Shown here in pieces: positions 1 through 63,516 of a stretch of 64,000 bases of DNA. This DNA is from Toxonevra muliebris. Taxonomy: Eukaryota > Arthropoda > Insecta > Diptera > Pallopteridae. Numbering within the stretch: position 1 is the stretch's first letter; each line of letters opens with the position of its first letter. Location of the stretch: NCBI GenBank assembly GCA_963691655.1, contig OY829326.1, positions 24,850,878 through 24,914,877 of the forward strand. Direction: 5' to 3'. The translations under genes and the position numbers were made by a program. Under the pieces are notes generated by a model. The model had not been told where the DNA came from, made no database searches, and was given only the letters and a program-made list of their open reading frames with translations.

Positions 1-140
1 AAACACCTTCTCCCCTATAGAAAAGGTGTCTCCGACAGTATAAAACGTCTTCTCCCCTATAGAAAAGGTGTCTCCGACAGTATAAAACGTCTTCTCCCCT
101 ATAGAAAAGGTGTCTCCGACAGTATAGAACGTCTTCTCCC

Positions 141-2866
141 CTATTGAAAAGTGTCTCCGACAGTATAAAACACCTTCTCCCCGATAGAAAAGGTGTCTCC
201 GACAGTATAGAACGTCTTCTCCCCTATAAAGGTGTCTCCGACAGTATAAAACACCTTCTCCCCTATAGAAAAGGTGTCTCCGACAGTATAAAACGTCTTC
301 TCCCCTATAAAAAAGGTGTCTCCGACAGTATAAAACACCTTCTCCCCTATAGAAAAGGTGTCTCCGACAGTATAGAACGTCTTCTCCCCTATAGAAAAGG
401 TGTCTCCGACAGTATAAAACACCTTCTCCCCTATAGAAAAGGTGTCTCCGACAGTATAAAACGTCTTCTCCCCTATAGAAAAGGTGTCTCCGAAAGTATA
501 AAACGTCTTCTCCCCTATAGAAAAGGTGTCTCCGACAGTATAAAACGTCTTCTCTACTATAGAAAAGATGTCTGCGACAGTATAAAACACCTTCTCCCCT
601 ATAGAAAAGGTGTCTCCGACAGTATAAAACGTCTTCTCTTCTATAGAAAAGATGTCTGCGACAGTATAAAACGTCTTCTCTACTATAGAAAAGGTGTCTG
701 CGACAGTATAAAACGTCTTCTCTACTATAGAAAAGGTGTCTGCGACAGTATAAAACGTCTTCTCCCCTATAGAAAAGGTGTCTCCGACAGTATAAAACAC
801 CTTCTCCCCTATAGAAAAGGTGTCTCCGACAGTATAAAACGTCTTCTCTACTATAGAAAAGATGTCTGCGACAGTATAAAACGTCTTCTCTACTATAGAA
901 AAGGTGTCTGCGACAGTATAAAACGTCTTCTCTACTATAGAAAAGGTGTCTGCGACAGTATAAAACACCTTCTCCCCTATAGAAAAGGTGTCTCCGACAG
1001 TATAAAACTTCTTCTCCCCTATAGAAAAGGTGTCTCCGACAGTATAAAACGTCTTCTCCCCTATAGAAAAGGTGTCTCCGACAGTACAAAACGTCTTCTC
1101 CCCTATAGAAAAGGTGTCTCCGACAGTATAGAACGTCTTCTCCCCTATAGAAAAGGTGTCTCCGACAGAATAAAACGTCTTCTCCCCTATAGAAAAGGTG
1201 TCTCCGACAGTATAAAACGTCTTCTCCCCTATAGAAAAGGTGTCTCCGACAGTATAAAACACCTTCTCCCCTATAGAAAAGGTGTCTCCGACAGTATAAA
1301 ACGTCTTCTCCCCTATAGAAAAGGTGTCTCCGACAGTATAAAACGTCTTCTCCCCTATAGAAAATGTGTCTCCGACAGTATAAAACGTCTTCTCTACTAT
1401 AGAAAAGGTGTCTCCGACAGTATAAAACGTCTTCTCTACTATAGAAAAGGTGTCTCCGACAGTATAAAACGTCTTCTCCCCTATAGAAAAGGTGTCTCCG
1501 ACAGTATAAAACGTCTTCTCCCCTATAAAAAAGGTGTCTCCGACAGTATAAAACTTCTGCTCCCCTATAAAAAAGGTGTCTCCGACAGTATAAAACTTCT
1601 GCTCCCCTATAAAAAAGGTGTCTCCGACAGTATAAAACTTCTGCTCCCCTATAGAAAAGGTGTCTTCCACAGTATAAAACGTCTTCTCCCCTATAGAAAA
1701 GGTGTCTCCGACAGTATAAAACGTCTTCTCCCCTATAGAAAAGGTGTCTCCGACAGTACAAAACGTCTTCTCCCCTATAGAAAAGGTGTCTCCGACAGTA
1801 TAGAACGTCTTCTCCCCTATAGAAAAGGTGTCTCCGACAGAATAAAACGTCTTCTCCCCTATAGAAAAGGTGTCTCCGACAGTACAAAACGTCTTCTCCC
1901 CTATAGAAAAGGTGTCTCCGACAGTATAGAACGTCTTCTCCCCTATAAAAAAGGTGTCTCCGACAGTATAAAACGTCTTCTCCCCTATAGAAAAGGTGTC
2001 TTCGACAGTATAAAACACCTTCTCCCCTATAGAAAAGGTGTCTCCGACAGTATAAAACGTCTTCTCCCCTATAGAAAAGGTGTCTCCGACAGTATAAAAC
2101 GTCTTCTCCCCTATAGAAAAGGTGTCTCCGACAGTATAAAACGTCTTCTCCCCTATAGAAAAGGTGTCTCCGACAGTACAAAACGTCTTCTCCCCTATAG
2201 AAAAGGTGTCTCCGACAGTATAAAACGTCTTCTCCCCTATAGAAAAGGTGTCTCCGACAGTATAAAACGTCTTCTCCCCTATAGAAAAGGTGTCTTCGAC
2301 AGTATAAAACACCTTCTCCCCTATAGAAAAGGTGTCTCCGACAGTATTAAACGTCTTCTCCCCTATAGAAAAGGTGTCTCCGACAGTATAAAACGTCTTC
2401 TCCCCTATTGAAAAGGTGTCTCCGACAGTATAAAACACCTTCTCCCCTATAGAAAAGGTGTCTCCGACAGTATAGAACGTCTTCTCCCCTATAGAAAAGG
2501 TGTCTCCGACAGTATAAAACGTCTTCTCCCCTATAGAAAAGGTGTCTCCGACAGTATAAAACGTCTTCTCTACTATAGAAAAGATGTCTGCGACAGTATA
2601 AAACGTCTTCTCTACTATAGAAAAGATGTCTGCGACAGTATAAAATGTCTTCTCTACTATAGAAAAGGTGTCTGCGACAGTATAAAACGTCTTCTCCCCT
2701 ATAGAAAAGGTGTCTCCGACAGTATAAAACACCTTCTCCCCTATAGAAAAGGTGTCTGCGACAGTATAAAACGTCTTCTCTACTACAGAAAAGGTGTCTG
2801 CGACAGTACAAAACGTCTTCTCCCCTATAGAAAAGGTGTCTCCGACAGTATAGAACGTCTTCTCCC
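141..2866. repeat. Higher-order repeat copy 1 (65 units, 2726 bp)
   Basis: The copy starts at a diagnostic variant unit, CTATTGAAAAGTGTC, which has lost one G. It is followed by a CCCCGATAG variant and a unit with a 3-bp deletion, CTATAAAGGTGTC. The same ordered trio recurs at 2867 and 5929. The distance 141 to 2867 is 2726 bp, exactly 65 x 42 minus the 4 bp lost in the two deletions. This shows amplification of a multi-kilobase block rather than of single units. Confidence 0.9.
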
Positions 2867-5800
2867 CTATTGAAAAGTGTCTCCGACAGTATAAAACACC
2901 TTCTCCCCGATAGAAAAGGTGTCTCCGACAGTATAGAACGTCTTCTCCCCTATAAAGGTGTCTCCGACAGTATAAAACACCTTCTCCCCTATAGAAAAGG
3001 TGTCTCCGACAGTATAAAACGTCTTCTCCCCTATAAAAAAGGTGTCTCCGACAGTATAAAACACCTTCTCCCCTATAGAAAAGGTGTCTCCGACAGTATA
3101 GAACGTCTTCTCCCCTATAGAAAAGGTGTCTCCGACAGTATAAAACACCTTCTCCCCTATAGAAAAGGTGTCTCCGACAGTATAAAACGTCTTCTCCCCT
3201 ATAGAAAAGGTGTCTCCGAAAGTATAAAACGTCTTCTCCCCTATAGAAAAGGTGTCTGCGACAGTATAAAACGTCTTCTCTACTATAGAAAAGATGTCTC
3301 CGACAGTATAAAACACCTTCTCCCCTATAGAAAAGGTGTCTCCGACAGTATAAAACGTCTTCTCTTCTATAGAAAAGATGTCTGCGACAGTATAAAACGT
3401 CTTCTCCCCTATAGAAAAGGTGTCTCCGACAGTATAAAACACCTTCTCCCCTATAGAAAAGGTGTCTCCGACAGTATAAAACGTCTTCTCTACTATAGAA
3501 AAGGTGTCTGCGACAGTATAAAACGTCTTCTCTACTATAGAAAAGGTGTCTGCGACAGTATAAAACGTCTTCTCCCCTATAGAAAAGGTGTCTCCGACAG
3601 TATAAAACACCTTCTCCCCTATAGAAAAGGTGTCTCCGACAGTATAAAACGTCTTCTCTACTATAGAAAAGATGTCTGCGACAGTATAAAACGTCTTCTC
3701 TACTATAGAAAAGGTGTCTGCGACAGTATAAAACGTCTTCTCTACTATAGAAAAGGTGTCTGCGACAGTATAAAACACCTTCTCCCCTATAGAAAAGGTG
3801 TCTCCGACAGTATAAAACTTCTTCTCCCCTATAGAAAAGGTGTCTCCGACAGTATAAAACGTCTTCTCCCCTATAGAAAAGGTGTCTCCGACAGTACAAA
3901 ACGTCTTCTCCCCTATAGAAAAGGTGTCTCCGACAGTATAGAACGTCTTCTCCCCTATAGAAAAGGTGTCTCCGACAGAATAAAACGTCTTCTCCCCTAT
4001 AGAAAAGGTGTCTCCGACAGTATAAAACACCTTCTCCCCTATAGAAAAGGTGTCTCCGACAGTATAAAACACCTTCTCCCCTATAGAAAAGGTGTCTCCG
4101 ACAGTATAAAACGTCTTCTCCCCTATAGAAAAGGTGCCTCCGACAGTACAAAACGTCTTCTCCCCTATAGAAAAGGTGTCTCCGACAGTATAGAACGTCT
4201 TCTCCCCTATAGAAAAGGTGTCTCCGACAGAATAAAACGTCTTCTCCCCTATAGAAAAGGTGTCTCCGACAGTATAGAACGTCTTCTCCCCTATAGAAAA
4301 GGTGTCTCCGACAGTACAAAACGTCTTCTCCCCTATAGAAAAGGTGTCTCCGACAGTATAAAACGTCTTCTCCCCTATAAAAAAGGTGTCTCCGACAGTA
4401 TAAAACTTCTGCTCCCCTATAGAAAAGGTGTCTTCCACAGTATAAAACGTCTTCTCCCCTATAGAAAAGGTGTCTCCGACAGTATAAAACGTCTTCTCCC
4501 CTATAGAAAAGGTGTCTCCGACAGTACAAAACGTCTTCTCCCCTATAGAAAAGGTGTCTCCGACAGTATAGAACGTCTTCTCCCCTATTGAAAAGGTGTC
4601 TCCGACAGAATAAAACGTCTTCTCCCCTATAGAAAAGGTGTCTCCGACAGTATAGAACGTCTTCTCCCCTATAAAAAAGGTGTCTCCGACAGTATAAAAC
4701 GTCTTCTCCCCTATAGAAAAGGTGTCTTCGACAGTATAAAACACCTTCTCCCCTATAGAAAAGGTGTCTCCGACAGTATAAAACGTCTTCTCCCCTATAG
4801 AAAAGGTGTCTCCGACAGTATAAAACGTCTTCTCCCCTATAGAAAAGGTGTCTCCGACAGTACAAAACGTCTTCTCCCCTATAGAAAAGGTGTCTCCGAC
4901 AGTATAAAACGTCTTCTCCCCTATAGAAAAGGTGTCTCCGACAGTATAAAACGTCTTCTCCCCTATAGAAAAGGTGTCTCCGACAGTATAAAACACCTTC
5001 TCCCCTATAGAAAAGGTGTCTGCGACAGTATAAAACGTCTTCTCTACTACAGAAAAGGTGTCTGCGACAGTATAAAACGTCTTCTCCCCTATAGAAAAGG
5101 TGTCTCCGACAGTATAAAACACCTTCTCCCCTATAGAAAAGGTGTCTGCGACAGTATAAAACGTCTTCTCTACTATAGAAAAGATGTCTGCGACAGTATA
5201 AAACGTCTTCTCTACTATAGAAAAGGTGTCTGCGACAGTATAAAACGTCTTCTCCCCTATAGAAAAGGTGTCTCCGACAGTATAAAACACCTTCTCCCCT
5301 ATAGAAAAGGTGTCTGCGACAGTATAAAACGTCTTCTCTACTACAGAAAAGGTGTCTGCGACAGTATAAAACGTCTTCTCCCCTATAGAAAAGGTGTCTC
5401 CGACAGTATAAAACACCTTCTCCCCTATAGAAAAGGTGTCTGCGACAGTATAAAACGTCTTCTCTACTATAGAAAAGATGTCTGCGACAGTATAAAACGT
5501 CTTCTCTACTATAGAAAAGGTGTCTGCGACAGTATAAAACGTCTTCTCCCCTATAGAAAAGGTGTCTCCGACAGTATAAAACACCTTCTCCCCTATAGAA
5601 AAGGTGTCTGCGACAGTATAAAACGTCTTCTCTACTACAGAAAAGGTGTCTGCGACAGTATAAAACGTCTTCTCCCCTATAGAAAAGGTGTCTCCGACAG
5701 TATAAAACACCTTCTCCCCTATAGAAAAGGTGTCTTCGACAGTATAAAACACCTTCTCCCCTATAGAAAAGGTGTCTCCGACAGTATAAAACGTCTTCTC

Positions 5801-5928
5801 CCCTATAGAAAAGGTGTCTCCGACAGTATAAAACGTCTTCTCCCCTATAGAAAAGGTGTCTCCGACAGTACAAAACGTCTTCTCCCCTATAGAAAAGGTG
5901 TCTCCGACAGTATAGAACGTCTTCTCCC
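2867..5928. repeat. Higher-order repeat copy 2 (73 units, 3062 bp)
   Basis: This copy has the same marker trio as the one starting at 141. The next marker lies at 5929, 3062 bp on, exactly 73 x 42 minus 4. It is therefore 336 bp, or 8 whole units, longer than copy 1, as expected from unequal exchange in register. Internal order of variant units (CTTCTATAG, CTCTACTATAG, CTTCTGCTCCCC and GTGCCTCC types) is largely shared with the copy that begins at 5929. Confidence 0.85.
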
Positions 5929-7567
5929 CTATTGAAAAGTGTCTCCGACAGTATAAAACACCTTCTCCCCGATAGAAAAGGTGTCTCCGACAGAATAAAA
6001 CGTCTTCTCCCCTATAAAGGTGTCTCCGACAGTATAAAACACCTTCTCCCCTATAGAAAAGGTGTCTCCGACAGTATAAAACGTCTTCTCCCCTATAAAA
6101 AAGGTGTCTCCGACAGTATAAAACACCTTCTCCCCTATAGAAAAGGTGTCTCCGACAGTATAGAACGTCTTCTCCCCTATAGAAAAGGTGTCTCCGACAG
6201 TATAAAACACCTTCTCCCCTATAGAAAAGGTGTCTCCGACAGTATAAAACGTCTTCTCCCCTATAGAAAAGGTGTCTCCGAAAGTATAAAACGTCTTCTC
6301 CCCTATAGAAAAGGTGTCTCCGACAGTATAAAACGTCTTCTCTACTATAGAAAAGATGTCTGCGACAGTATAAAACGTCTTCTCTACTATAGAAAAGATG
6401 TCTCCGACAGTATAAAACACCTTCTCCCCTATAGAAAAGGTGTCTCCGACAGTATAAAACGTCTTCTCTTCTATAGAAAAGATGTCTGCGACAGTATAAA
6501 ACGTCTTCTCTACTATAGAAAAGGTGTCTGCGACAGTATAAAACGTCTTCTCTACTATAGAAAAGGTGTCTGCGACAGTATAAAACGTCTTCTCCCCTAT
6601 AGAAAAGGTGTCTCCGACAGTATAAAACACCTTCTCCCCTATAGAAAAGGTGTCTCCGACAGTATAAAACGTCTTCTCTACTATAGAAAAGATGTCTGCG
6701 ACAGTATAAAACGTCTTCTCTACTATAGAAAAGGTGTCTGCGACAGTATAAAACGTCTTCTCTACTATAGAAAAGGTGTCTGCGACAGTATAAAACGTCT
6801 TCTCTACTATAGAAAAGGTGTCTGCGACAGTATAAAACACCTTCTCCCCTATAGAAAAGGTGTCTCCGACAGTATAAAACTTCTTCTCCCCTATAGAAAA
6901 GGTGTCTCCGACAGTATAAAACGTCTTCTCCCCTATAGAAAAGGTGTCTCCGACAGTACAAAACGTCTTCTCCCCTATAGAAAAGGTGTCTCCGACAGTA
7001 TAGAACGTCTTCTCCCCTATAGAAAAGGTGTCTCCGACAGAATAAAACGTCTTCTCCCCTATAGAAAAGGTGTCTCCGACAGTATAAAACACCTTCTCCC
7101 CTATAGAAAAGGTGTCTCCGACAGTATAAAACACCTTCTCCCCTATAGAAAAGGTGTCTCCGACAGTATAAAACGTCTTCTCCCCTATAGAAAAGGTGCC
7201 TCCGACAGTACAAAACGTCTTCTCCCCTATAGAAAAGGTGTCTCCGACAGTATAGAACGTCTTCTCCCCTATAGAAAAGGTGTCTCCGACAGTATAAAAC
7301 GTCTTCTCCCCTATAGAAAAGGTGTCTCCGACAGTATAAAACGTCTTCTCTACTATAGAAAAGGTGTCTGCGACAGTATAAAACGTCTTCTCCCCTATAG
7401 AAAAGGTGTCTCCGACAGTATAAAACACCTTCTCCCCTATAGAAAAGGTGTCTCCGACAGTATAAAACGTCTTCTCCCCTATAGAAAAGGTGTCTCCGAC
7501 AGTATAAAACGTCTTCTCTACTATAGAAAAGGTGTCTCCGACAGTATAAAACGTCTTCTCCCCTATA

Positions 7568-8733
7568 GAAAAGGTGTCTCCGACAGTATAAAACACCTTC
7601 TCCCCTATAGAAAAGGTGTCTCCGACAGTATAGAACGTCTTCTCCCCTATAGAAAAGGTGTCTGCGACAGTATAAAACACCTTCTCCCCTATAGAAAAGG
7701 TGTCTCCGACAGTATAAAACGTCTTCTCCCCTATAGAAAAGGTGTCTCCGAAAGTATAAAACGTCTTCTCTACTATAGAAAAGATGTCTGCGACAGTATA
7801 AAACGTCTTCTCCCCTATAGAAAAGGTGTCTCCGACAGTATAAAACGTCTTCTCTACTATAGAAAAGATGTCTGCGACAGTATAAAACGTCTTCTCCCCT
7901 ATAGAAAAGGTGTCTCCGACAGTATAAAACGTCTTCTCCCCTATAGAAAAGGTGTCTCCGACAGTATAAAACGTCTTCTCCCCTATAGAAAAGGTGTCTT
8001 CGACAGTATAAAACACCTTCTCCCCTATAGAAAAGGTGTCTCCGACAGTATAAAACGTCTTCTCCCCTATAGAAAAGGTGTCTCCGACAGTATAAAACGT
8101 CTTCTCCCCTATAGAAAAGGTGTCTCCGAAAGTATAAAACGTCTTCTCCCCTATAGGTGTCTCCGACAGTATAAAACTTCTGCTCCCCTATAGAAAAGGT
8201 GTCTCCGACAGTATAAAACGTCTGCTCCCCTATAGAAAAGGTGTCTCCGACAGTATAAAACACCTTCTCCCCTATAGAAAAGGTGTCTCCGACAGTATAA
8301 AACGTCTTCTCCCCTATAGAAAAGGTGTCTCCGAAAGTATAAAACGTCTTCTCTACTATAGAAAAGATGTCTGCGACAGTATAAAACGTCTTCTCCCCTA
8401 TAGAAAAGGTGTCTCCGACAGTATAAAACGTCTTCTCTACTATAGAAAAGATGTCTGCGACAGTATAAAACGTCTTCTCCCCTATAGAAAAGGTGTCTCC
8501 GACAGTATAAAACGTCTTCTCCCCTATAGAAAAGGTGTCTCCGACAGTATAAAACGTCTTCTCCCCTATAGAAAAGGTGTCTTCGACAGTATAAAACACC
8601 TTCTCCCCTATAGAAAAGGTGTCTCCGACAGTATAAAACGTCTTCTCCCCTATAGAAAAGGTGTCTCCGACAGTATAAAACGTCTTCTCCCCTATAGAAA
8701 AGGTGTCTCCGAAAGTATAAAACGTCTTCTCCC
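7568..8733. repeat. Tandem 583-bp duplication within the satellite
   Basis: A unit with a 5-bp deletion, CCCCTATAGGTGTCTCCG, occurs at 8151 and again at 8734, and nowhere else that I found. The spacing of 583 bp equals 14 x 42 minus 5. The units upstream of both markers match in order, including a CCGAAAGTATA variant followed by a CTCTACTATAG unit. Downstream of the markers the two copies agree for about 90 bp and then differ. Confidence 0.8.
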
Positions 8734-11700
8734 CTATAGGTGTCTCCGACAGTATAAAACTTCTGCTCCCCTATAGAAAAGGTGTCTCCGACAGTATAAA
8801 ACGTCTGCTCCCCTATAGAAAAGGTGTCTCCGACAGTATAAAACGTCTTCTCCCCTATAGAAAAGGTGTCTCCGACAGTATAGAACGTCTTCTCCCCTAT
8901 AGAAAAGGTGTCTCCGACAGTATAGAACGTCTTCTCCCCTATAGAAAAGGTGTCTCCGACAGTATAAAACGTCTTCTCCCCTATAGAAAAGGTGTCTCCG
9001 ACAGTATAAAACGTCTTCTCTACTATAGAAAAGGTGTCTGCGACAGTATAAAACGTCTTCTCCCCTATAGAAAAGGTGTCTCCGACAGTATAAAACACCT
9101 TCTCCCCTATAGAAAAGGTGTCTCCGACAGTATAAAACGTCTTCTCTACTATAGAAAAGGTGTCTCCGACAGTATAAAACGTCTTCTCCCCTATAGAAAA
9201 GGTGTCTCCGACAGTATAGAACGTCTTCTCCCCTATAGAAAAGGTGTCTCCGACAGTATAAAACGTCTTCTCCCCTATAGAAAAGGTGTCTCCGACAGTA
9301 TAAAACGTCTTCTCTACTATAGAAAAGATGTCTGCGACAGTATAAAACGTCTTCTCTACTATAGAAAAGGTGTCTGCGACAGTATAAAACGTCTTCTCTA
9401 CTATAGAAAAGGTGTCTGCGACAGTATAAAACGTCTTCTCCCCTATAGAAAAGGTGTCTCCGACAGTATAAAACACCTTCTCCCCTATAGAAAAGGTGTC
9501 TCCGACAGTATAAAACGTCTTCTCCCCTATAGAAAAGGTGTCTCCGACAGTATAAAACGTCTTCTCCCCTATAGAAAAGGTGTCTCCGACAGTATAAAAC
9601 GTCTTCTCCCCTATAGAAAAGGTGTCTCCGACAGAATAAAACGTCTTCTCCCCTATAGAAAAGGTGTCTCCGACAGTATAGAACGTCTTCTCCCCTATAG
9701 AAAAGGTGTCTCCGACAGTATAAAACGTCTTCTCTACTATAGAAAAGGTGTCTCCGACAGTATAAAACGTCTTCTCCCCTATAGAAAAGGTGTCTCCGAC
9801 AGTATAAAACACCTTCTCCCCTATAGAAAAGGTGTCTCCGACAGTATAAAACGTCTTCTCCCCTATAGAAAAGGTGTCTCCGACAGTATAAAACGTCTTC
9901 TCTACTATAGAAAAGATGTCTGCGACAGTATAAAACGTCTTCTCCCCTATAGAAAAGGTGTCTCCGACAGTATAAAACGTCTTCTCCCCTATAGAAAAGG
10001 TGTCTCCGACAGTATAAAACGTCTTCTCCCCTATAGAAAAGGTGTCTTCGACAGTATAAAACACCTTCTCCCCTATAGAAAAGGTGTCTCCGACAGTATA
10101 AAACGTCTTCTCCCCTATAGAAAAGGTGTCTCCGACAGTACAAAACGTCTTCTCCCCTATAGAAAAGGTGTCTCCGACAGTATAAAACGTCTTCTCCCCT
10201 ATAGAAAAGGTGTCTGCGACAGTATAAAACTTCTTCTCTACTATAGAAAAGGTGTCTGCGACAGTATAAAACGTCTTCTCTACTATAGAAAAGGTGTCTG
10301 CGACAGTATAAAACGTCTTCTCCCCTATAGAAAAGGTGTCTCCGACAGTATAAAACACCTTCTCCCCTATAGAAAAGGTGTCTCCGACAGTATAAAACGT
10401 CTTCTCCCCTATAGAAAAGGTGTCTCCGACAGTATAAAACGTCTTCTCCCCTATAGAAAAGGTGTCTCCGACAGTATAAAACGTCTTCTCCCCTATAGAA
10501 AAGGTGTCTCCGACAGTACAAAACGTCTTCTCCCCTATAGAAAAGGTGTCTCCGACAGTATAGAACGTCTTCTCCCCTATAGAAAAGGTGTCTCCGACAG
10601 TATAAAACGTCTTCTCCCCTATAGAAAAGGTGTCTCCGACAGAATAAAACGTCTTCTCCCCTATAGAAAAGGTGTCTCCGACAGTATAGAACGTCTTCTC
10701 CCCTATAGAAAAGGTGTCTCCGACAGTATAAAACGTCTTCTCTACTATAGAAAAGGTGTCTCCGACAGTATAAAACGTCTTCTCCCCTATAGAAAAGGTG
10801 TCTCCGACAGTATAAAACACCTTCTCCCCTATAGAAAAGGTGTCTCCGACAGTATAAAACGTCTTCTCCCCTATAGAAAAGGTGTCTCCGACAGTATAAA
10901 ACGTCTTCTCTACTATAGAAAAGATGTCTGCGACAGTATAAAACGTCTTCTCCCCTATAGAAAAGGTGTCTCCGACAGTATAAAACGTCTTCTCCCCTAT
11001 AGAAAAGGTGTCTCCGACAGTATAAAACGTCTTCTCCCCTATAGAAAAGGTGTCTTCGACAGTATAAAACACCTTCTCCCCTATAGAAAAGGTGTCTCCG
11101 ACAGTATAAAACGTCTTCTCCCCTATAGAAAAGGTGTCTCCGACAGTATAGAACGTCTTCTCCCCTATAGAAAAGGTGTCTCCGACAGTATAAAACACCT
11201 TCTCCCCTATAGAAAAGGTGTCTCCGACAGTATAAAACGTCTTCTCCCCTATAGAAAAGGTGTCTCCGACAGTATAGAACGTCTTCTCCCCTATAGAAAA
11301 GGTGTCTCCGACAGTATAGAACGTCTTCTCCCCTATAGAAAAGGTGTCTCCGACAGTATAAAACGTCTTCTCCCCTATAGAAAAGGTGTCTCCGACAGTA
11401 TAAAACGTCTTCTCTACTATAGAAAAGATGTCTGCGACAGTATAAAACGTCTTCTCTACTATAGAAAAGGTGTCTGCGACAGTATAAAACGTCTTCTCCC
11501 CTATAGAAAAGGTGTCTCCGACAGTATAAAACACCTTCTCCCTTATAGAAAAGGTGTCTCCGACAGTATAAAACACCTTCTCCCCTATAGAAAAGGTGTC
11601 TCCGACAGTATAAAACGTCTTCTCTACTATGGAAAAGGTGTCTCCGACAGTATAAAACGTCTTCTCCCCTATAGAAAAGGTGTCTCCGACAGTATAAAAC

Positions 11701-12460
11701 GTCTTCTCCCCTATAGAAAAGGTGTCTGCGACAGTATAAAACGTCTTCTCTACTATAGAAAAGGTGTCTGCGACAGTATAAAACGTCTTCTCTACTATAG
11801 AAAAGGTGTCTGCGACAGTATAAAACGTCTTCTCCCCTATAGAAAAGGTGTCTCCGACAGTATAAAACACCTTCTCCCCTATAGAAAAGGTGTCTCCGAC
11901 AGTATAAAACGTCTTCTCCCCTATAGAAAAGGTGTCTCCGACAGTATAAAACGTCTTCTCTCCTATAGAAAAGGTGTCTCCGACAGTATAGAACGTCTTC
12001 TCCCCTATAGAAAAGGTGTCTCCGACAGTATAAAACGTCTTCTCCCCTATAGAAAAGGTGTCTCCGACAGTATAGAACGTCTTCTCCCCTATAGAAAAGG
12101 TGTCTCCGACAGTATAAAACGTCTTCTCTACTATAGAAAAGGTGTCTCCGACAGTATAAAACGTCTTCTCCCCTATAGAAAAGGTGTCTCCGACAGTATA
12201 AAACACCTTCTCCCCTATAGAAAAGGTGTCTCCGACAGTATAAAACGTCTTCTCCCCTATAGAAAAGGTGTCTCCGACAGTATAGAACGTCTTCTCCCCT
12301 ATAGAAAAGGTGTCTCCGACAGTATAAAACACCTTCTCCCCTATAGAAAAGGTGTCTCCGACAGTATAAAACGTCTTCTCCCCTATAGAAAAGGTGTCTC
12401 CGACAGTATAGAACGTCTTCTCCCCTATAGAAAAGGTGTCTCCGACAGTATAGAACGTCT

Positions 12461-14308
12461 TCTTCCCTATAGAAAAGGTGTCTCCGACAGTATAAAACGT
12501 CTTCTCCCCTATAGAAAAGGTGTCTCCGACAGTATAGAACGTCTTCTCCCCTATAGAAAAGGTGTCTCCGACAGTATAGAACGTCTTCTCCCCTATAGAA
12601 AAGGTGTCTCCGACAGTATAAAACGTCTTCTCCCCTATAGAAAAGGTGTCTCCGACAGTATAGAACGTCTTCTCTACTATAGAAAAGGTGTCTGCGGCAG
12701 TATAAAACGTCTTCTCCCCTATAGAAAAGGTGTCTCCGACAGAATAAAACGTCTTCTCCCCTATAGAAAAGGTGTCTCCGACAGTATAGAACGTCTTCTC
12801 CCCTATAGAAAAGGTGTCTCCGACAGTATAGAACGTCTTCTCCCCTATAGAAAAGGTGTCTCCGACAGTATAAAACGTCTTCTCTACTATAGAAAAGGTG
12901 TCTCCGACAGTATAAAACGTCTTCTCCCCTATAGAAAAGGTGTCTCCGACAGTATAAAACACCTTCTCCCCTATAGAAAAGGTGTCTCCGACAGTATAAA
13001 ACGTCTTCTCCCCTATAGAAAAGGTGTCTCCGACAGTATAAAACGTCTTCTCCCCTATAGAAAAGGTGTCTCCGACAGTATAGAACGTCTTCTCCCCTAT
13101 AGAAAAGGTGTCTCCGACAGTATAAAACGTCTTCTCTACTATAGAAAAGGTGTCTCCGACAGTATAAAACGTCTTCTCCCCTATAGAAAAGGTGTCTCCG
13201 ACAGTATAAAACACCTTCTCCCCTATAGAAAAGGTGTCTCCGACAGTATAAAACGTCTTCTCCCCTATAGAAAAGGTGTCTCCGACAGTATAAAACGTCT
13301 TCTCCCCTATAGAAAAGGTGTCTCCGACAGTATAAAACGTCTTCTCCCCTATAGAAAAGGTGTCTCCGACAGTATAGAACGTCTTCTCTACTATAGAAAA
13401 GGTGTCTGCGGCAGTATAAAACGTCTTCTCCCCTATAGAAAAGGTGTCTCCGACAGTATAAAACGTCTTCTCCCCTATAGAAAAGGTGTCTCCGACAGTA
13501 TAAAACGTCTTCTCCCCTATAGAAAAGGTGTCTCCGACAGTATAAAACGTCTTCTCTCCTATAGAAAAGGTGTCTCCGACAGTATAAAACGTCTTCTCCC
13601 CTATAGAAAAGGTGTCTCCGACAGAATAAAACGTCTTCTCCCCTATAGAAAAGGTGTCTCCGACAGTATAGAACGTCTTCTCCCCTATAGAAAAGGTGTC
13701 TCCGACAGTATAAAACGTCTTCTCTACTATAGAAAAGGTGTCTCCGACAGTATAAAACGTCTTCTCCCCTATAGAAAAGGTGTCTCCGACAGTATAAAAC
13801 GTCTTCTCTCCTATAGAAAAGGTGTCTCCGACAGTATAGAACGTCTTCTCCCCTATAGAAAAGGTGTCTCCGACAGTATAAAACGTCTTCTCCCCTATAG
13901 AAAAGGTGTCTCCGACAGTATAGAACGTCTTCTCCCCTATAGAAAAGGTGTCTCCGACAGTATAAAACGTCTTCTCTACTATAGAAAAGGTGTCTCCGAC
14001 AGTATAAAACGTCTTCTCCCCTATAGAAAAGGTGTCTCCGACAGTATAAAACACCTTCTCCCCTATAGAAAAGGTGTCTCCGACAGTATAAAACGTCTTC
14101 TCCCCTATAGAAAAGGTGTCTCCGACAGTATAGAACGTCTTCTCCCCTATAGAAAAGGTGTCTCCGACAGTATAAAACACCTTCTCCCCTATAGAAAAGG
14201 TGTCTCCGACAGTATAAAACGTCTTCTCCCCTATAGAAAAGGTGTCTCCGACAGTATAGAACGTCTTCTCCCCTATAGAAAAGGTGTCTCCGACAGTATA
14301 GAACGTCT
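12461..14308. repeat. Higher-order periodicity of 44 units (1848 bp) in the right part of the array
   Basis: A rare TCTTCCCTATAG variant occurs at 12461 and 14309, 1848 bp or 44 units apart. A second rare variant, TCTGCGGCAG, occurs at 12691, 13405, 14581 and 14959; the pair 12691 and 14581 is 45 units apart. The flanking order of variants is similar around both sets. The right half of the array was therefore also amplified in blocks, with a period different from the left half. Confidence 0.75.
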
Positions 14309-16303
14309 TCTTCCCTATAGAAAAGGTGTCTCCGACAGTATAAAACGTCTTCTCCCCTATAGAAAAGGTGTCTCCGACAGTATAGAACGTCTTCTCCCCT
14401 ATAGAAAAGGTGTCTCCGACAGTATAGAACGTCTTCTCCCCTATAGAAAAGGTGTCTCCGACAGTATAAAACGTCTTCTCCCCTATAGAAAAGGTGTCTC
14501 CGACAGTATAAAACGTCTTCTCCCCTATAGAAAAGGTGTCTCCGACAGTATAGAACGTCTTCTCTACTATAGAAAAGGTGTCTGCGGCAGTATAAAACGT
14601 CTTCTCCCCTATAGAAAAGGTGTCTCCGACAGTATAAAACACCTTCTCCCCTATAGAAAAGGTGTCTCCGACAGTATAAAACGTCTTCTCCCCTATAGAA
14701 AAGGTGTCTCCGACAGTATAAAACACCTTCTCCCCTATAGAAAAGGTGTCTCCGACAGTATAAAACGTCTTCTCTACTATAGAAAAGGTGTCTCCGACAG
14801 TATAAAACGTCTTCTCCCCTATAGAAAAGGTGTCTCCGACAGTATAAAACGTCTTCTCCCCTATAGAAAAGGTGTCTGCGACAGTATAAAACGTCTTCTC
14901 TACTATAGAAAAGGTGTCTGCGACAGTATAAAACGTCTTCTCTACTATAGAAAAGGTGTCTGCGGCAGTATAAAACGTCTTCTCCCCTATAGAAAAGGTG
15001 TCTCCGACAGTATAAAACACCTTCTCCCCTATAGAAAAGGTGTCTCCGACAGTATAAAACGTCTTCTCCCCTATAGAAAAGGTGTCTCCGACAGTATAAA
15101 ACGTCTTCTCCCCTATAGAAAAGGTGTCTCCGACAGTATAAAACGTCTTCTCTCCTATAGAAAAGGTGTCTCCGACAGTATAAAACGTCTTCTCCCCTAT
15201 AGAAAAGGTGTCTCCGACAGAATAAAACGTCTTCTCCCCTATAGAAAAGGTGTCTCCGACAGTATAGAACGTCTTCTCCCCTATAGAAAAGGTGTCTCCG
15301 ACAGTATAAAACGTCTTCTCTACTATAGAAAAGGTGTCTCCGACAGTATAAAACGTCTTCTCCCCTATAGAAAAGGTGTCTCCGACAGTATAAAACACCT
15401 TCTCCCCTATAGAAAAGGTGTCTCCGACAGTATAAAACGTCTTCTCCCCTATAGAAAAGGTGTCTCCGACAGTATAAAACGTCTTCTCCCCTATAGAAAA
15501 GGTGTCTCCGACAGTATAGAACGTCTTCTCTACTATAGAAAAGGTGTCTCCGACAGTATAAAACGTCTTCTCCCCTATAGAAAAGGTGTCTCCGACAGTA
15601 TAAAACACCTTCTCCCCTATAGAAAAGGTGTCTCCGACAGTATAAAACGTCTTCTCCCCTATAGAAAAGGTGTCTCCGACAGTATAAAACGTCTTCTCCC
15701 CTATAGAAAAGGTGTCTCCGACAGTATAAAACACCTTCTCCCCTATAGAAAAGGTGTCTCCGACAGTATAAAACGTCTTCTCCCCTATAGAAAAGGTGTC
15801 TCCGACAGTACAAAACGTCTTCTCCCCTATAGAAAAGGTGTCTCCGACAGTATAGAACGTCTTCTCCCCTATAGAAAAGGTGTCTCCGACAGTATAAAAC
15901 GTCTTCTCCCCTATAGAAAAGGTGTCTCCGACAGTATAGAACGTCTTCTCTACTATAGAAAAGATGTCTGCGACAGTATAAAACGTCTTCTCTACTATAG
16001 AAAAGGTGTCTGCGACAGTATAAAACGTCTTCTCCCCTATAGAAAAGATGGCTCCGGCAGTATAAAACGTCTTCTCCCCTATAGAAAAGGTGTCTCCGAC
16101 AGTGTAAAACACCTTCTCCCCTATAGAAAAGGTGTCTCCGACAGTATAAAACGTCTTCTCCCCTATAGAAAAGGTGTCTCCGACAGTATAAAACGTCTTC
16201 TCCCCTATAGAAAAGGTGTCTCCGACAGTATAAATCGTCTTCTCCCCTATAGAAAAGGTGTCTCCGACAGTATAAAACGTCTTCTCTCCTATAGAAAAGG
16301 TGC

Positions 16304-16904
16304 TATAGGTCACTGGACTGTCAAGAATTACGGATAAAGTAGATTTCTAGTAAAGATACCAAAATCATCTACTTCATTCAAACTGAACTTCACGAAGTGC
16401 TTTGACACATTTTTCCTAAAAAAGTGGATTTGAGAAGAAATTTTGTCGGAACTATTTTTTTTATTTATACTGACAGATTCACAATAGATTGCAGGAGTCT
16501 ACTCAAAGCACCTCAATATTTTAATACTACTTCAAATTCCGGACAAAAGTCGAGTTTTCCAGTCCGAACAGAACAGTTAAATACACTGTTTCTAAATATC
16601 TAAACTCAGACTTAAAATCCTTTAAATTCATTAACCAGTGCACTAAACTTATTTTTCATGTAGAAAATAATATATTTTTGTATAATTAGTGCAGGTATTC
16701 CAATTAAAGTTCTCTGTATTAAAAGTAAGGAAATAAAGTTAAATTTAAGCAAGACAATAACATAAAAAAAATATGAAAAATAATAGAAATATTAATAGTG
16801 ATATTAGTTTTAAAACCTAGTAAAATAAATACCTAGCTACTATGGGAAAAAAACAACAACATAAGTGTGTAGAACGGTAGTGGTAGTTTCTTTCAATATC
16901 TCTA
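16304..16904. other. AT-rich flank of the satellite, no gene seen
   Basis: This is the unique-looking sequence immediately right of the array. It starts with GGTCACTGGACTGTCAAG and becomes strongly AT-rich. No reading frame, RNA gene or mobile element was recognised. Confidence 0.6.
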
Positions 16905-17002
16905 TTCAGTGAAGATATTTGGAATCAAATCCGTAATTCTGGGTTATGATTTCAAATATTAGTAGCTTATATAGGATATTGAAAGATTAAGAACTATCAC
17001 TA

Positions 17003-17051
17003 AGATCACTGATGAGGAATTGTGGCGGATTCCGAAACGGCCGTCTGATTT
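17003..17051 (+). ncRNA. Type I hammerhead ribozyme motif, copy A (intact core)
   Basis: Stem I is AGATCA (17003-17008) with TGATTT (17046-17051), six pairs including one G.U. The conserved CTGATGA is 17009-17015. Stem II is GGAAT (17016-17020) with ATTCC (17029-17033), closed by the 8-nt loop TGTGGCGG. GAAA is 17034-17037. Stem III is only A-C with G-T (17037-17038 with 17043-17044) around a GGCC loop. The cleavage-site base is C17045, so predicted cleavage falls between 17045 and 17046. All invariant hammerhead core bases are present, including the G10.1-C11.1 pair. Distal TATATAGG (16968-16975) could extend stem I by pairing with CCTATATA (17053-17060), though with a large bulge. Minimal hammerheads with very short stem III are known from Penelope-like elements and retrozymes. 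Activity is inferred, not shown. Confidence 0.8.
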
Positions 17052-17284
17052 GCCTATATACATTGTTGTTGTGATGACTACATTTGTTCATTAACCTGTT
17101 TATATGTAACTTCAAATAACGAAATTGACATGAACTTAAGTCATGACTTTGAAAAATTAACCTCTAGATTTAATTTTCATAGTCTCCTAAAAAACTATCA
17201 ATACTTATTTTGTTTGATTGATTTTATCAGGCTTAATGAACGTTTGTCAAAGTAATAAAGTGACAAAGTCACCACAGTATAGAC

Positions 17285-17333
17285 AAATCATACGGCGGTT
17301 TAGGAATCCGCCACAATTCCTTATCAGTGATCT
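17285..17333 (-). ncRNA. Decayed hammerhead motif, copy C (core mutated)
   Basis: Read on the minus strand, stem I (AGATCA with TGATTT), stem II (GGAAT with ATTCC) and the 8-nt loop TGTGGCGG are identical to copy A. However CTGATGA has become CTGATAA (invariant G8 to A), GAAA has become TAAA (invariant G12 to T), and the cleavage triplet is GTA. Loss of G8 and G12 should abolish catalysis, so this is a dead copy. Its perfect stems, retained while core bases changed, make the secondary-structure reading more credible. Confidence 0.6.
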
Positions 17334-17640
17334 TAGTTTTCAACGTCTTGTATAAATTATTTAAATTTGAAATCGTAATCCAGAATTACGGGATAAATGA
17401 CAAATTTGTTAACAGAATAGAGATGCTCAAATGAACCTACACAACTATTCCTTATACTTATTTTCGTTGTATGTCCCATTGCAACTAATCATATGATTCG
17501 CCTATCCTCTATACACTATTGTGCTTTTGTCACTTTGACAAACGTTCAATAAACCTGATAAAATTAATCAAACAAATTAAAGACATGAACTCAGATATAG
17601 AAATGAGCATCTTGACCTCATTTTCATAACCTCTAAACAA

Positions 17641-20600
17641 TACTTATTTACTATTGGACAGTAGGAAAAATAGTGTATAACTTATTATTTTTCACAACAC
17701 AAAAATATTTTGAAGTACAGGGACTGCCTCTTCAATTTATAGGCTTGACGTTGGCCTAATCTGGATTCGAGGGCATAGGAATATTAAAAGTAATAAAAGA
17801 GACAATGAATGAGTAAGGCGAGAATCAGGTGAAGACATTTTTCAGGCAAAAAAGGAATGGGTTCCTACTTGGCCCATGCCCATTCTGAGCTAAGTCAAGC
17901 TAACATTAGTGAAACATATCGACCAGATACTGCATCCTACACAATACTGATTTCAGATACAGACACTCTTTCTCAACCATTGTCGGAATCCTACCAAATA
18001 CAGACTGAACATTTTCCATTTCCAGAAATAAGATTTGAAAAGCTTGTTCAATGCCAAGGTGCCAATAAATAAATTGCGTTGGTTGGTCTTAGCATTCGAT
18101 GAATGTAGTCGCCATTGCTGGACTATTACAAGATGCCTTGGTTTGATACTCGTTACGGTGGAAACCAAAAAAAATAATTTCTCCTACTTTTTAAATAAAA
18201 GTTTTTGAAAATTGATATAAACTTGATATTATCGCCTTTTTTATGAAAATTATTTATTCGTTTTGATCCTAAGTTTTTCGTTACTTTTAAATTTATTTTA
18301 ATTAATTGAAACCTAATTATCTTTTTGGAGTATTCTGATGTGTACTGGATCATGATTTTCCCTTCTTGGTAGTAACATTTGAATAGCAAATTTTGTTGTT
18401 ACACCAATATTTGAAGTTTTTCCGTTCCGTTTTAAATTTGTAATCAATAGTTAGGCAAAGAAATACCAGGAATTGCTTTCAAATTTATCTCAAATTTTTT
18501 CTACAAATTTTAACCTCAGTAAACGTGAAATAATATGTTCAAGTGGTGTATGTTTGCATTACGTTTATATATGATTTAATTTACCTGCTTTCGTTCATTG
18601 ACTCATTCGCTCGTAATATAATAAATATCTTAAAAAGCAAAGAAATTTCATATCAAGAAAAAATACATTTTACTCTTGGATTTTACAAGAAAAATTTATA
18701 TGTGATTACTTACTAGCTCCATGAGTGCATAAGGGAGCCCCCGCTCAGTTTTAAACAATAATCGTTTTCCCACATTTTCTGCTAATACTATAGCAGTTTT
18801 TTCTGTTGCCGCTGCTGCTCCCTTTTCTACTTCTGTTCCATTTCATTAATGTTCGAAAGCACGGCAGCATTATTTGTGGTTTTCTGCACTAATGGAAATC
18901 TGCTTTCATTTTTATGTGTGTATGTGTGTGTTTGTTTGTTACGCTCGAGACTTTTCAGACTCCTACGTTTACTACGCGAGTAAATTCACTTCATTTTCTT
19001 TCGCCCTTGTAGCCCTTTGTACAAGGAATATTACAAGCAATTTTTTACCCGCTTTTACAATGCGCACAATTTTTGAATTTTAGCAACGCGCGTTTTGTTG
19101 CATTGGATTTTCTTTTCTTTTTTGTTTTTTTTGTTTTTTTGTTTTTTTTTGCCTTTTTTTACCCTTTACTCCATTTCGTTTTCTATTTTAATTTTACTAA
19201 CATCTAACAGCAGATAGTAATAATTTTTCGCTACTTCTTTAAGTATTTATCTAGCTAGCGATTCTCTGAATATATATGCACCTTCTCTATTATTTTAAAG
19301 TGCGAGCGTGGGAAAAGCTGGAAACTTTAGCATCGCACAGCAATTTGAAGAATATAACCAAGATTATAATTTCTCATTATGAATTCCATTTCATTTCATA
19401 TTATTTTTCTTTTTTTTTCCTTTCTCTTTTCATTTTACTCTTCCCTTTATATTTTGCAAACAATTTTCTGCTTTGGAATTTGCAATTTGTTTATTGTGCA
19501 ATTCTTGTGTACATATAAACAACACTTTAGTTTACACTGCTGGTTAAAAGAATGGGCCGGGCAGTTTTTAGATTTGAAATTATTAGGTGTGTGAAATTTG
19601 GTTGTGAATTAGAAATATCAGCTTTTTTTCATTTAATTTAATTGTTTTTTTTATCAACGTTTAATGTATCCTATGACACATTAAGTTTTCTTTATAAGTA
19701 CATAAAAAAGTAATTAAAATATGTTCATGAAAGTAATATTTTTAAAAATATTTTAATTGAATTTAATGTAATATCAGCAATACAAATTCAAATTCTGTGT
19801 CTGTTACTTTTCTGTCACTGTTACTTCTCAGCACATTTTTTCTCATTTTGCTGTTACTTTTCTGCTACCGCTACTTTTTAAGCTGGAACTGCTTAACTTG
19901 CGCTTGCGTCAGCTGGAATCTAAATAGAGCTAAATGTTTTGAAAATATATGCACTGAACTCCATTGTTTTCCGCATGTGCCGAATTGCCGCATTAAAACT
20001 TAAAAGGTTGGTCAAGTTTCAACTTTTTATTGCGGCAAATAAGGCGCATATATATTGACAGGAAGTTGTTTATATTTTATTAAAAGAAAAAGAATAAAAG
20101 GAAAGAAGATTTTATTTTTATTTATTTATTTGCTAGGAATAATATATAATAATAAAACAAGCTAAGCGGTAAGTGCCAGCTGCCAGGGCCTTCGACTCAG
20201 GAATGAAGATATATTCTGGAGGAGATACAAATTAATATAATTAATTAATCAAAATCAATTTTAGCATCAAAATGAGAGAAATTAGCTTATGAATATGCCG
20301 TAGAAGAACGCATATGTACATTGGAGTTGCTTTTCATAATGTACATAAACCGCAAATGCCGCAGTTAGTTCCACCTTTAGTCATTTCCATTTTTCATTGA
20401 CTGCAACTTTCCGCAAAAATTTTCTTCATAGCCTCTATTTCTTTCCAGTCACGGTTACTTTCAAGTCAATGTTACTTTTCAGTCAAATTTTGTCAACAGT
20501 TTCTGTTGCTTTCCAGTCAAGCTTTTATTGTAATTCCTACTACTTATCAGTTGCTATTAACTTTCAAACAAATTTTTCTTAACTGACTCTGATACTTTTC

Positions 20601-31130: not shown

Positions 31131-31340
31131 TTCTTGCACTTCCTCCTCAACTCAATATTTGAGTGCTTGTCCTCTTATCAGATTCCAGGTCTTTAAAACC
31201 AATTGGCATGTAAAAAAAAAATATTTTCAGTAGTTGAAGTCTTATTATAAAGTATTGTTTTGTTTTTTGTAGACAATGAAAATTAAATCTAGTTTTAATT
31301 TTCAAGTCGTGACTACTGTTCCATGTTTTTAGTGAATTAA

Positions 31341-31607
31341 GGTAATGTATAACAGGCTTATGGAACGTATATATGTAGTCATCACAACTATTCAGTGAAG
31401 ATATTTGGAATCAAATCTATAATTTTAGGTTACGATTTCAAACACCAGTACCTTATATAGGATATTGAAAGATTAAGAACTATCACTAAGATCACTGATG
31501 AGGAATCGTGGCGGATTCCGAAACAGCCGTCTAATTTGCCTGTCTCTGTATACACTGTTGTTGTGACGACTACATATATACGTTCCTTAAGCCTATTATA
31601 CATTACC
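31341..31607. mobile_element. 267-bp TIR element carrying a hammerhead motif
   Basis: Left end GGTAATGTATAACAGGCTTA and inverted right end GGTAATGTATAATAGGCTTA agree at 19 of the first 20 positions. The match continues through GGAACGTATATATGTAGTC and TCACAAC, giving inverted repeats of about 47 bp with three mismatches. TAA flanks both ends (31338-31340 and 31608-31610), compatible with a 3-bp target duplication. The body is homologous to 16905-17110. No protein is encoded. A PIF/Harbinger-type MITE (TWA target) would fit the ends; a Penelope-like terminal repeat would fit the ribozyme. Which is right cannot be settled here. Confidence 0.8.
31489..31537 (+). ncRNA. Type I hammerhead ribozyme motif, copy B
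   Basis: AGATCA (31489-31494), CTGATGA (31495-31501), GGAAT/ATTCC stem II (31502-31506 with 31515-31519) around CGTGGCGG, GAAA (31520-31523), a two-pair stem III (AC with GT) around AGCC, and cleavage base C31531. The core is identical to copy A. Changes from A fall in the stem II loop (T to C), the stem III loop (G to A) and stem I (TGATTT to TAATTT, one mismatch at the second pair). Predicted cleavage lies between 31531 and 31532, inside the 267-bp TIR element. It is probably weaker than A because of the stem I mismatch. Confidence 0.75.
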
Positions 31608-32571
31608 TAAAGTATTGTTTTATTATAGTATTATTGAGTATTATTGAGATGTGAAACCTCAAAATCATGAAATCTGAAAAGTTAAAATTTCCTTGCGGTC
31701 ATTATTTCTAGTTTTATACATTTGTTGAGATTTATCAATAAAATATCATAAGCTTAAAAAATAAATTAGGTATATTTGGTATGCGCACTTTCATATTTTG
31801 TAGTTCGTTATGTATCAATATATAATAAAGAGGCAATAAAAAGCATCAGCTGAAAATGGTACAAGAAAAATCATCATAAAAACTGCATATGATTTTTCCG
31901 CCACAGATGAATTTTCTTATTTTGTGAATATTGAATCTCAAATTTTCAAGCTGCAAATCTGCATACAGATTTTACCATAATTTTTTTTTTTTTTTTTTTT
32001 TACCGCAATGTTCCACTTACTTCTTACTTCATCATTTCAGGTTGCTGCTGTTCACGCATTCTATTTCTTTTAATTTTTCTTCGACTGAATGTCGCAACAT
32101 TTTATGAGAATTTATTTGTTTCACGTGCCACATTTACATCTAAGTTCACGACTATCATCGCCATCACTTCCATATTGACCACAAAATTCATATGATTGCG
32201 TTGATACTCATCTGGATGTTGAATGTTGATGCGCTTCGGCCGGTTTTATCAAAAATTTCGTTGTTACGTTTGCTATAGAAAAATGGCTGCCTGCATGTTT
32301 TTGTTACTTTTTTCTTTGCATGTGTATGGACATATTTGATACCCTACATAAATACTTTAGTGTTATATACTATTGCTTCTTTGCGATTTTTACTTACATT
32401 TGCTGAAATCTTTTTCAAACTTAAACTATTTGTCCTATTTTAAAAGTATAATTTATTTTCACATCTGAGAAAGTTCTCTTTGAACTTTTTTAAACGAAGT
32501 GTATACTTCTATTGATGGCATTACTATTCTTATGTGATCATTTTGGTCTTAATATTGTGTCCTGGGTTTGA

Positions 32572-62583: not shown

Positions 62584-63516
62584 CCACTTTGATCGAAAAG
62601 CTCCCGGAATAACCACCGTGTGGCGCTCCCATCGTTTCGATTTGAGTTCTGTTTTTTTTTTTTGTTAAGTTGGCACATCGGTTTTTGATATTCCCTCTAA
62701 ATCTTAGCGTCAGAGCTTGACATTTGCGTACGCATTTGCGTTACGTAGCTAAGAGTACATATATCTCTGTGTGTGTTTGTGAGTGATTTTTTACAATTTT
62801 ATTAAATTGCATTGTATTAAACTTTGCGTAAAAAACGGATTTAATGCTGCGCGAATGTTGGAAAAGTTGTTGTAAAAGTGTTTCGGCAACGATTCTCTAC
62901 AGAAAACGGTCGTTTACCAGTGGCACGAGCGGTTCAAAAGTGGTCGTGAGTCAATCGAAGATGATGAACGCACTGGAGAACATTGACATCGAAAACCGAC
63001 GAAAACGTTGATAAAGTAAAAGAAATTTTGGTCAATAACGACAAATTAACCATCATAGAGTATTATTTAAGCGTTATGAGGCGTTTGCGTGAAGCAATTC
63101 GCCGAAAAAGACCAGAATTGTGGACAGAAAACTCGTGGATTTTGCACCATGATAACGCACCGTCGCACAGTGCCATCATTATTCGTAATTTTTTGACAAA
63201 AAATGCAACAAATACCATCCAACAGCCACCGAATGCACCTGATTTGGCTGCTTGTGATTACTTTCTGTTAAATCGAGTTAAAAAACCATTACGGGGAACG
63301 CATTTCAGCAGCCGAGAGGAAGTAATGGAAAAATCGCAGGAAGCATTGATGGGCATACCGAAAACCGAATATAAAAAATGTTTCGAGAATTGGATCAAGC
63401 GCTGGCATAAGTGTGTTGCAGTCGTTGGAGATTACTTTGAAGGGGACAATATTGATTTAGATGAATAAACTTGTATTTTTAATAAATAAACTTCGGGAAC
63501 TTTTTGATCAAGGTGA
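62584..63516 (+). mobile_element. Internally deleted DD34D mariner (933 bp)
   Basis: TA flanks both ends (62582-62583, 63517-63518). Left end CCACTTTGATCGAAAAGCTC and inverted right end TCACCTTGATCAAAAAGTTC are imperfect 28-bp repeats. The element is about 350 bp shorter than a usual 1.3-kb mariner, which fits the missing transposase segment. It is non-autonomous. Confidence 0.88.
62816..63468 (+). pseudogene. mariner transposase DD34D with central deletion
   Basis: The N-terminal DNA-binding part is recognisable as KLCVKNGFNAARMLEKLL, then YQWHERFKSGRESIEDDERT. A TAA interrupts at 62873-62875, and a frameshift falls near 62978-62985. After TSKTDENVDKVKEILVNNDK the sequence jumps from LTI to EYYLSVMRRLREAIRRKRPE. 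In intact relatives these are separated by roughly 115 residues that hold the first catalytic Asp (TGDETW). The remaining two Asp are present in HHDNAPSH and APDLAACDYF with 34 residues between them. The C-terminus RWHKCVAVVGDYFEGDN ends at 63468. With one catalytic Asp deleted it cannot be active. Confidence 0.9.

Follow-up and report, generated by a model that had tools for sequence, protein, structure and literature searches.

A type I hammerhead motif conserved in a dispersed family of short repeats that look Penelope-like in the fly Toxonevra muliebris

The 64,000-nt stretch of Toxonevra muliebris DNA analysed here (the window) carries, at positions 17003 to 17051 of the forward strand, a type I hammerhead motif that is real and conserved, and that is carried by a large dispersed family of short repeats. 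The layout of the repeat copies matches that of Penelope-like elements (PLEs), and as far as sequence can tell the motif appears to ride on a short element of PLE type. The reading that we favour, with rather more confidence than doubt, is that of a non-autonomous PLE-like retroelement, which would obtain its reverse transcriptase in trans and whose RNA would cleave itself as a hammerhead dimer.

The motif reads AGATCA-CTGATGA-GGAAT-TGTGGCGG-ATTCC-GAAA-CGGCCG-TC-TGATTT exactly, and all hammerhead core positions read from it are correct. Stem I is made of six pairs, one of them G.U, stem II of five pairs plus a possible U.G, and stem III of two pairs (A-U and C-G) with a GGCC loop. The features by which type I hammerheads are recognised (CUGANGA, GAA, the A15.1-U16.1 pair, an NUH triplet and three stems, with the motif open at stem I) are all found in it. 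The original prediction of a complete type I hammerhead is confirmed, since the core and the three stems are all right in the sequence, and the GTC cleavage triplet (17043-17045) with a predicted new 5′ end at 17046 lies where it had been placed. When both strands of the 64 kb were scanned with a hammerhead descriptor, this motif was the single match. Dinucleotide shuffles gave matches in none of 150 when stems I, II and III were required to hold at least 4, 4 and 1 pairs, in none of 150 at limits of 5, 5 and 1, and in 2 of 150 at 4, 3 and 1; the chance occurrence of the full motif is improbable. Pattern scans of viral contigs returned no match. The CTGATGA core contains an ATG, which stays in frame for about 22 codons, as counted by eye, before a stop; the ATG-initiated stretch in the copies ends within about this length, and the copies are short and apparently non-coding.

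Table 1. Repeat copies, hammerhead motifs and probable target duplications in the window.
Feature	Position	Strand	Basis or remark
Repeat copy A, 5′-truncated, long 3′ end ...CTCCTAAAAAACTATCA, left end approximate	16833..17198	+	alignment ends against other fetched A loci
Imperfect palindrome (long hairpin) upstream of the ribozyme	16878..17002	+	self-alignment; fold z -12.9 against 40 shuffles
Type I hammerhead motif, copy A	17003..17051	+	sequence, descriptor scan, RF00163 match of 23.8 bits, under the Rfam cut-off
Copy A stem I	17003-17008/17046-17051	+	sequence
Copy A CTGATGA	17009-17015	+	sequence
Copy A stem II	17016-17020/17029-17033	+	sequence
Copy A GAAA	17034-17037	+	sequence
Copy A helix III palindrome ACGGCCGT	17037-17044	+	cleavage predicted 3′ of 17045
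Likely target duplication CAATACTTATTT bordering copy C on the left	17199..17210; second copy 17638-17649	.	12-bp direct repeat
Repeat copy C, older subfamily, with inverted 5′ piece	17211..17637	-	inverted repeats; between 12-bp direct repeats
Hammerhead of copy C, decayed at G8 and G12	17285..17333	-	sequence; GTA triplet usual for subfamily C
Likely target duplication TAAAGTATTGTTTT bordering copy B on the left	31248..31261; second copy 31608-31621	.	14-bp direct repeat
Repeat copy B, opening with an inverted 5′ piece (31262 to about 31387) that is followed by the direct, ribozyme-bearing part and a short 3′ end	31262..31607	+	inverted repeats; 14-bp flanking direct repeats
Copy B hammerhead with an intact core, a single C-A mismatch within stem I and a broken palindrome ACAGCCGT	31489..31537	+	

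Three copies of the repeat lie in the window (Table 1). Copy C adjoins copy A, while copies A and B share 84% identity over 227 nt. The direct repeats of 14 bp around copy B and 12 bp around copy C are probable target duplications. In copy B, both the stem I mismatch and the broken palindrome deviate from the subfamily B consensus. The window copies are self-paired on the ribozyme strand, with z-scores from -3.8 to -9.0; for the whole of copy B, the values are -9.0 on this strand and -14.0 on the other, and two control stretches gave -0.9 and +0.6.

A search of the genome (491 Mb in 96 contigs) for repeat copies returned 143 candidates with the A query, 2924 with the B query and 821 with the C query, 40 being scored in each case; these counts are lower bounds from overlapping sets, at least two A loci (L002 and L015) recurring in the C list. 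The loci taken were all 40 for A, 30 of 41 in the B list and 24 of 42 in the C list, the window's own copy being in each set. In the 70 A and B loci, core and stems are about 2 to 4 times less diverged than the flanks, with the proviso that candidates were picked by similarity, which may bias all divergence rates. Differences from the consensus number 17 of 1478 in core and stems versus 241 of 4899 in the flanks for the 40 A loci, and 23 of 1110 versus 313 of 5742 for the 30 B loci. Compared with the upstream flank alone, the counts are 17/1478 versus 45/2113 in A (p 0.027) and 23/1110 versus 144/3270 in B (p 0.00026). Loop II varies at a flank-like rate. Of the A loci, 33/40 keep an intact core, 31/40 keep core and stems together and 32/40 keep the palindrome ACGGCCGT; for B, the corresponding figures are 24/30, 19/30 and 24/30. 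The A and B consensus sequences are the same at 48 of 49 positions of the ribozyme and at 52 of 53 of the upstream flank, compared with 58 of 72 of the 3′ flank. The ribozyme-like agreement of the upstream flank indicates that the constraint is not confined to the ribozyme.

Across the A and B set of 70 copies, the stems hardly vary, and such invariance alone is poor evidence on pairing. Possible covariation is limited to two places, namely a U.G versus C-G alternation at the end of stem II and a double change in L027. In the second motif of this locus (at about 1264, 202 bp from the first), the stem II pair 18-27 is C-G in place of U-A, which is the most clear-cut compensatory change found. 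This second motif is of the same type and much more divergent, a hint of a fourth subfamily. The C set contains 26 rows (23 loci, the second L027 motif, window copy C and window copy A, copy B being left out), of which several are A- or B-like and 12 pass the strict core test. Among the 15 rows with a GTA triplet, 6 pass this test (L083, L084, L087, L090, L100 and L101), and the majority base, judged by eye, is correct at each core position although many rows are decayed. In this old subfamily, the core is hence still visible, usually with a GUA triplet, and the notion that copy C stands for a catalytically dead subfamily was rejected, as its relatives keep the core as the majority. The original prediction had set the stems against the flanks in genome-wide copies; the comparison came out in its favour, core and stems changing less in both sampled subfamilies, A and B, with the core of subfamily C and the compensatory pair of L027 pointing the same way.

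The conserved block could instead be a binding or priming signal, a DNA or RNA hairpin used by the transposition machinery, with the hammerhead likeness being incidental or a relic. Copy C differs from copy A at 4 of the 49 nt, all outside stems I and II and three of them at core or cleavage positions, which fits such a signal, as do the conserved upstream flank, the masking of the core in the single-copy fold and the inverted junctions of L007, L008 and L029 at the palindrome (both described below). This is however very unlikely, given the low chance of a full motif and the fact that subfamily C as a whole does not share the core losses of copy C, its GUA triplet being one that hammerheads allow.

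The whole window gave no match against Rfam at the gathering score, and a 3.5-kb slice searched at E<=10 had 4 matches listed, none of them a hammerhead; the snoRNA matches in that slice, SNORD24 and SNORD5, were dismissed as far under the cut-off. In a 91-nt slice, where the Rfam filters are laxer than in longer stretches, Hammerhead_1 (RF00163) matches over model positions 1-45 of 45 with an E of 3.6e-4, at 23.8 bits for a cut-off of 34, and the copy B motif scores 15.6 bits (E 0.19). A genome-wide search with the Rfam family gave no match among the 73 scored of 52362 candidates, and 14 control genomes were likewise silent. The original prediction had named the lack of a hit above threshold as evidence against it, and the motif does formally score below that threshold. 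Nevertheless, the hammerhead-like motif of L074, beside a PLE with an open frame of 866 aa, gave no Hammerhead match in a same-type slice either (one PLE tested). The threshold is hence judged an unfair test here, which suggests that it may miss hammerheads of this sort.

The 49-mer of copy A folds no better than its own shuffles (z -0.5), so that stability alone gives no support for a hammerhead; the 49-mer of the window's copy B reaches z -2.1. As single molecules, the 49-mers of subfamilies A and B are predicted to hide the core, the best folds being -11.2 kcal/mol for A and -13.6 kcal/mol for B versus -5.0 and -7.4 kcal/mol for the respective hammerheads. Helix III is an 8-nt palindrome, ACGGCCGU, from which two B-consensus copies can build an 8-bp helix III, and the resulting double hammerhead is their best predicted fold (-33.9 kcal/mol). 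With two copies of subfamily A, the double hammerhead (-29.1) does no more than draw level with a different fold (-29.3), and with a pair of window copies B it is not preferred (-22.7 versus -33.4). The palindromic helix III, the masked single fold and the double hammerhead formed by two copies in these models imply that one motif alone is unlikely to be the functional unit. The type I hammerhead with a minimal stem III of the original prediction is supported, with this refinement. A single motif is present in 66 of the 70 loci and two motifs in 4 (in direct order in L027 and L054, inverted in L001 and L009), so that few loci could supply a dimer template in cis, a point against the dimer reading. 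In L009, two intact ribozyme motifs lie head to head at 845-1095 within a 407-bp palindrome of 90% identity.

Under the favoured model, a short, apparently non-coding element with a PLE layout would be reverse transcribed in trans, with an enzyme that most likely comes from a PLE resident in this genome. The RNA of the element would carry the type I hammerhead near its 3′ part, and two motifs would pair via ACGGCCGU into a double hammerhead. This would cut the RNA after GUC (GUA in the oldest subfamily) and trim the transcript into units for reverse transcription. While the motif, its conservation, the copies with their ends, duplications and inversions, and the presence of PLEs are seen directly, dimer action, cleavage in cells and a PLE as helper are what we infer.

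The copies are short (about 0.35-0.5 kb) and, together with their genome-wide dispersal and apparent lack of coding capacity, support the earlier description of a dispersed repeat without reverse transcriptase. Their 5′ ends are ragged, beginning at many different points, and subfamily A shows two alternative 3′ ends, ...AACTTCAAAT or ...CTCCTAAAAAACTATCA, B having corresponding ends. Once the 3′ ends were fixed, the two sides shared a direct repeat of at least 11 nt in 17 of 70 loci versus 55 of 700 swapped-locus controls; with the ends unfixed, the count of 23/70 versus 34/210 stands out less from its control, because the copies share internal sequence. The target duplications at the repeat copies measure 10-16 bp. 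Direct repeats of 19 nt in L010 and 34 nt in L003, considered as duplications, were left out of this range since they lie outside the usual ends. Inverted 5′ pieces occur in 14 of 70 loci and derive from the ribozyme-bearing end, from 60 nt upstream to about 225 nt downstream. The inverted junctions of L007, L008 and L029 fall at the palindrome, about 10 nt upstream of the cleavage site, while the 5′ end of L011 falls some 10 nt downstream of the predicted site. The idea that cleavage sets the 5′ ends was dropped, all these being about 10 nt off.

Direct and inverted terminal pieces, an optional 3′ tail, 5′ truncation and target duplications (TSDs) are thus each found in part of the 70 loci. 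Published PLE copies have pLTRs in both direct and inverted orientation, TSDs and in some cases a 3′ tail (PMC3846280), and are also described in tandem or partial tandem order (PMC11167929).

Inverted repeats flanking copies B and C first raised the idea of a DNA fold-back element or MITE with terminal inverted repeats. This was dropped on the ragged 5′ ends and the duplications of varying length in the 70 loci; moreover, 56 of these carry no inverted 5′ piece and the inverted pieces differ in extent, so that we give this explanation hardly any credence. LINE-driven insertion commonly leaves TSDs of 10-16 bp and truncated 5′ ends. A SINE-like element moved by a LINE, which keeps its hammerhead only for RNA trimming, would hence account for both features of the repeat. 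However, no A-tail was seen at the 3′ ends inspected, there are two alternative 3′ ends, and the inverted 5′ pieces and partial tandems are as in PLEs, making a SINE-like origin quite improbable.

A metazoan non-LTR retrozyme proper, in which tandem units are cut by each hammerhead, ligated into small circular RNAs and reverse transcribed, would also be short, AT-rich and apparently non-coding, with a type I hammerhead and TSDs, all of which describe the repeat. The self-pairing of the window copies on the ribozyme strand goes with this reading, as do direct pieces upstream of the copy in at least six loci (L007, L011, L022, L061, L066 and L069), one of which, L011, has a period of 482 bp. Tandem hammerhead-bearing units, in the sense of two motifs in direct order, are however confined to 2 of the 70 loci and most loci hold one motif, whereas retrozymes are described as tandem repeats whose hammerheads, in invertebrates, are usually efficient as single motifs (PMC7229834, in the sections available). 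Inverted 5′ pieces go unmentioned in those sections. We regard a retrozyme proper as unlikely.

Autonomous PLEs encode their own reverse transcriptase, mostly together with a GIY-YIG endonuclease. A search of the genome for GIY-YIG domains gave 2 matches from 13 scored candidates. L071 was taken as a host SLX1-type gene from its frames, read by eye, and L072 is a broken PLE. With the reverse transcriptase piece of L072 as query, 147 of 179 candidates were scored and gave 148 matches, the longest open frame being 866 aa. This genome houses several families of PLEs whose open frames are long (827, 859 and 866 aa), and three frames of 866 aa score equally against L072. Direct pLTR-like repeats were found in two of the three PLE loci fetched (602 bp in L075, 344 bp in L076), as were inverted 5′ pieces (714 bp in L074, 310 bp in L076). 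A CTGANGA..GAAA motif is present in all three, within the direct repeats of L075 and L076 and just past the frame in L074; these are minimal hammerhead-like motifs with CTGAAGA or CTGAGGA and GAAA, and their sequences are unlike that of the repeat hammerhead.

The repeat was compared with four PLE loci out of the 148 matches, namely L074, L075, L076 and L073, the last being of one family and comprising the region around L072. No common ends were found in these four, which weighs against the favoured model. L074 gave no match at all, while L073 and L076 gave weak AT-rich matches of 19-88 nt, the best being 88 nt at 66% in L073 (E 6e-5) and the one in L076 being 43 nt at 74% (E 0.002), on the opposite strand and in both pLTRs. 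A whole repeat copy lies 1.3 kb downstream of the PLE in L075; as it is missing at the matching place of three loci of equal reverse transcriptase score, it was taken as a chance neighbour and not as PLE-linked.

Minimal hammerheads of Penelope-like elements were reportedly described by Cervera and de la Pena in 2014. Like the hammerhead of the repeat, they are type I with a near-absent helix III, dispersed or in pLTRs, and probably act as dimers, according to the portions available of PMC11167929, PMC7761336 and PMC6155905; unlike them, the repeat has no long ORF and its helix III is a clear 8-nt palindrome. One published PLE has its start codon inside the hammerhead (PMC11167929, in part), which the in-frame ATG of the repeat echoes, except that the frame of the repeat soon stops. 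Most repeat-associated eukaryotic hammerheads are of type I, and those of Aedes aegypti resemble the present one in lying in insect interspersed repeats and in having a palindromic stem/loop III through which two molecules would pair, the dimer being proposed for them in the legend of Fig S8 (PMC3088659). Inverted pieces, TSDs and alternative 3′ ends, in contrast, are not described in the portion of that paper available. An Aedes RNA was among the 4 of 18 without detected cleavage (PMC3088659), a warning for this repeat too. The satellite hammerhead of newt and axolotl also combines a single base-paired stem with a palindromic tetraloop in helix III and works as a dimer, but it belongs to a tandem satellite whereas the repeat is dispersed (PMC7229834, in part), and a similar dimer logic is reported for the newt and ASBVd hammerheads in the available text of PMC6155905. 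Metazoan non-LTR retrozymes share with the repeat the small non-coding element, the type I hammerhead and the TSDs (PMC7229834, same sections), and differ from it in that the repeat occurs mostly as single dispersed copies with PLE-like inversions. The repeat thus seems a good but not unprecedented example of a hammerhead-carrying PLE-like element. The phrase "non-autonomous Penelope" was not found in a literature search of a narrow combination of terms, which shows little.

What moves animal retrozymes is not settled; the 2020 NAR paper (PMC7229834, section 17) proposes PLEs as helpers and names them a strong candidate. The bridging layout of the repeat bears on this question. The coexistence of a short hammerhead element with PLE-type ends and of PLEs with long frames makes the idea of PLEs as retrozyme movers testable. 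In a bolder version, which we put forward tentatively and consider doubtful, the repeat would link retrozymes and PLEs as a non-autonomous PLE derivative of perhaps thousands of copies, in which ACGGCCGU would serve both as dimer interface and as the template-switch point creating inverted copies, so that dimerisation and PLE-style insertion would form one cycle. For biochemistry, the repeat offers a natural double-hammerhead candidate in three subfamilies.

Upstream of the repeat copies, the window begins with a 16.3-kb array (7-16302) of about 388 copies of a 42-bp unit with 94% matches. This array leaves frames open over up to 2720 codons on the reverse strand and 755 codons on the forward strand, with no obvious gene. 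Two other open frames, at 37054-38032 (-) and 62983-63468 (+), resemble by eye pieces of mariner-type transposase.
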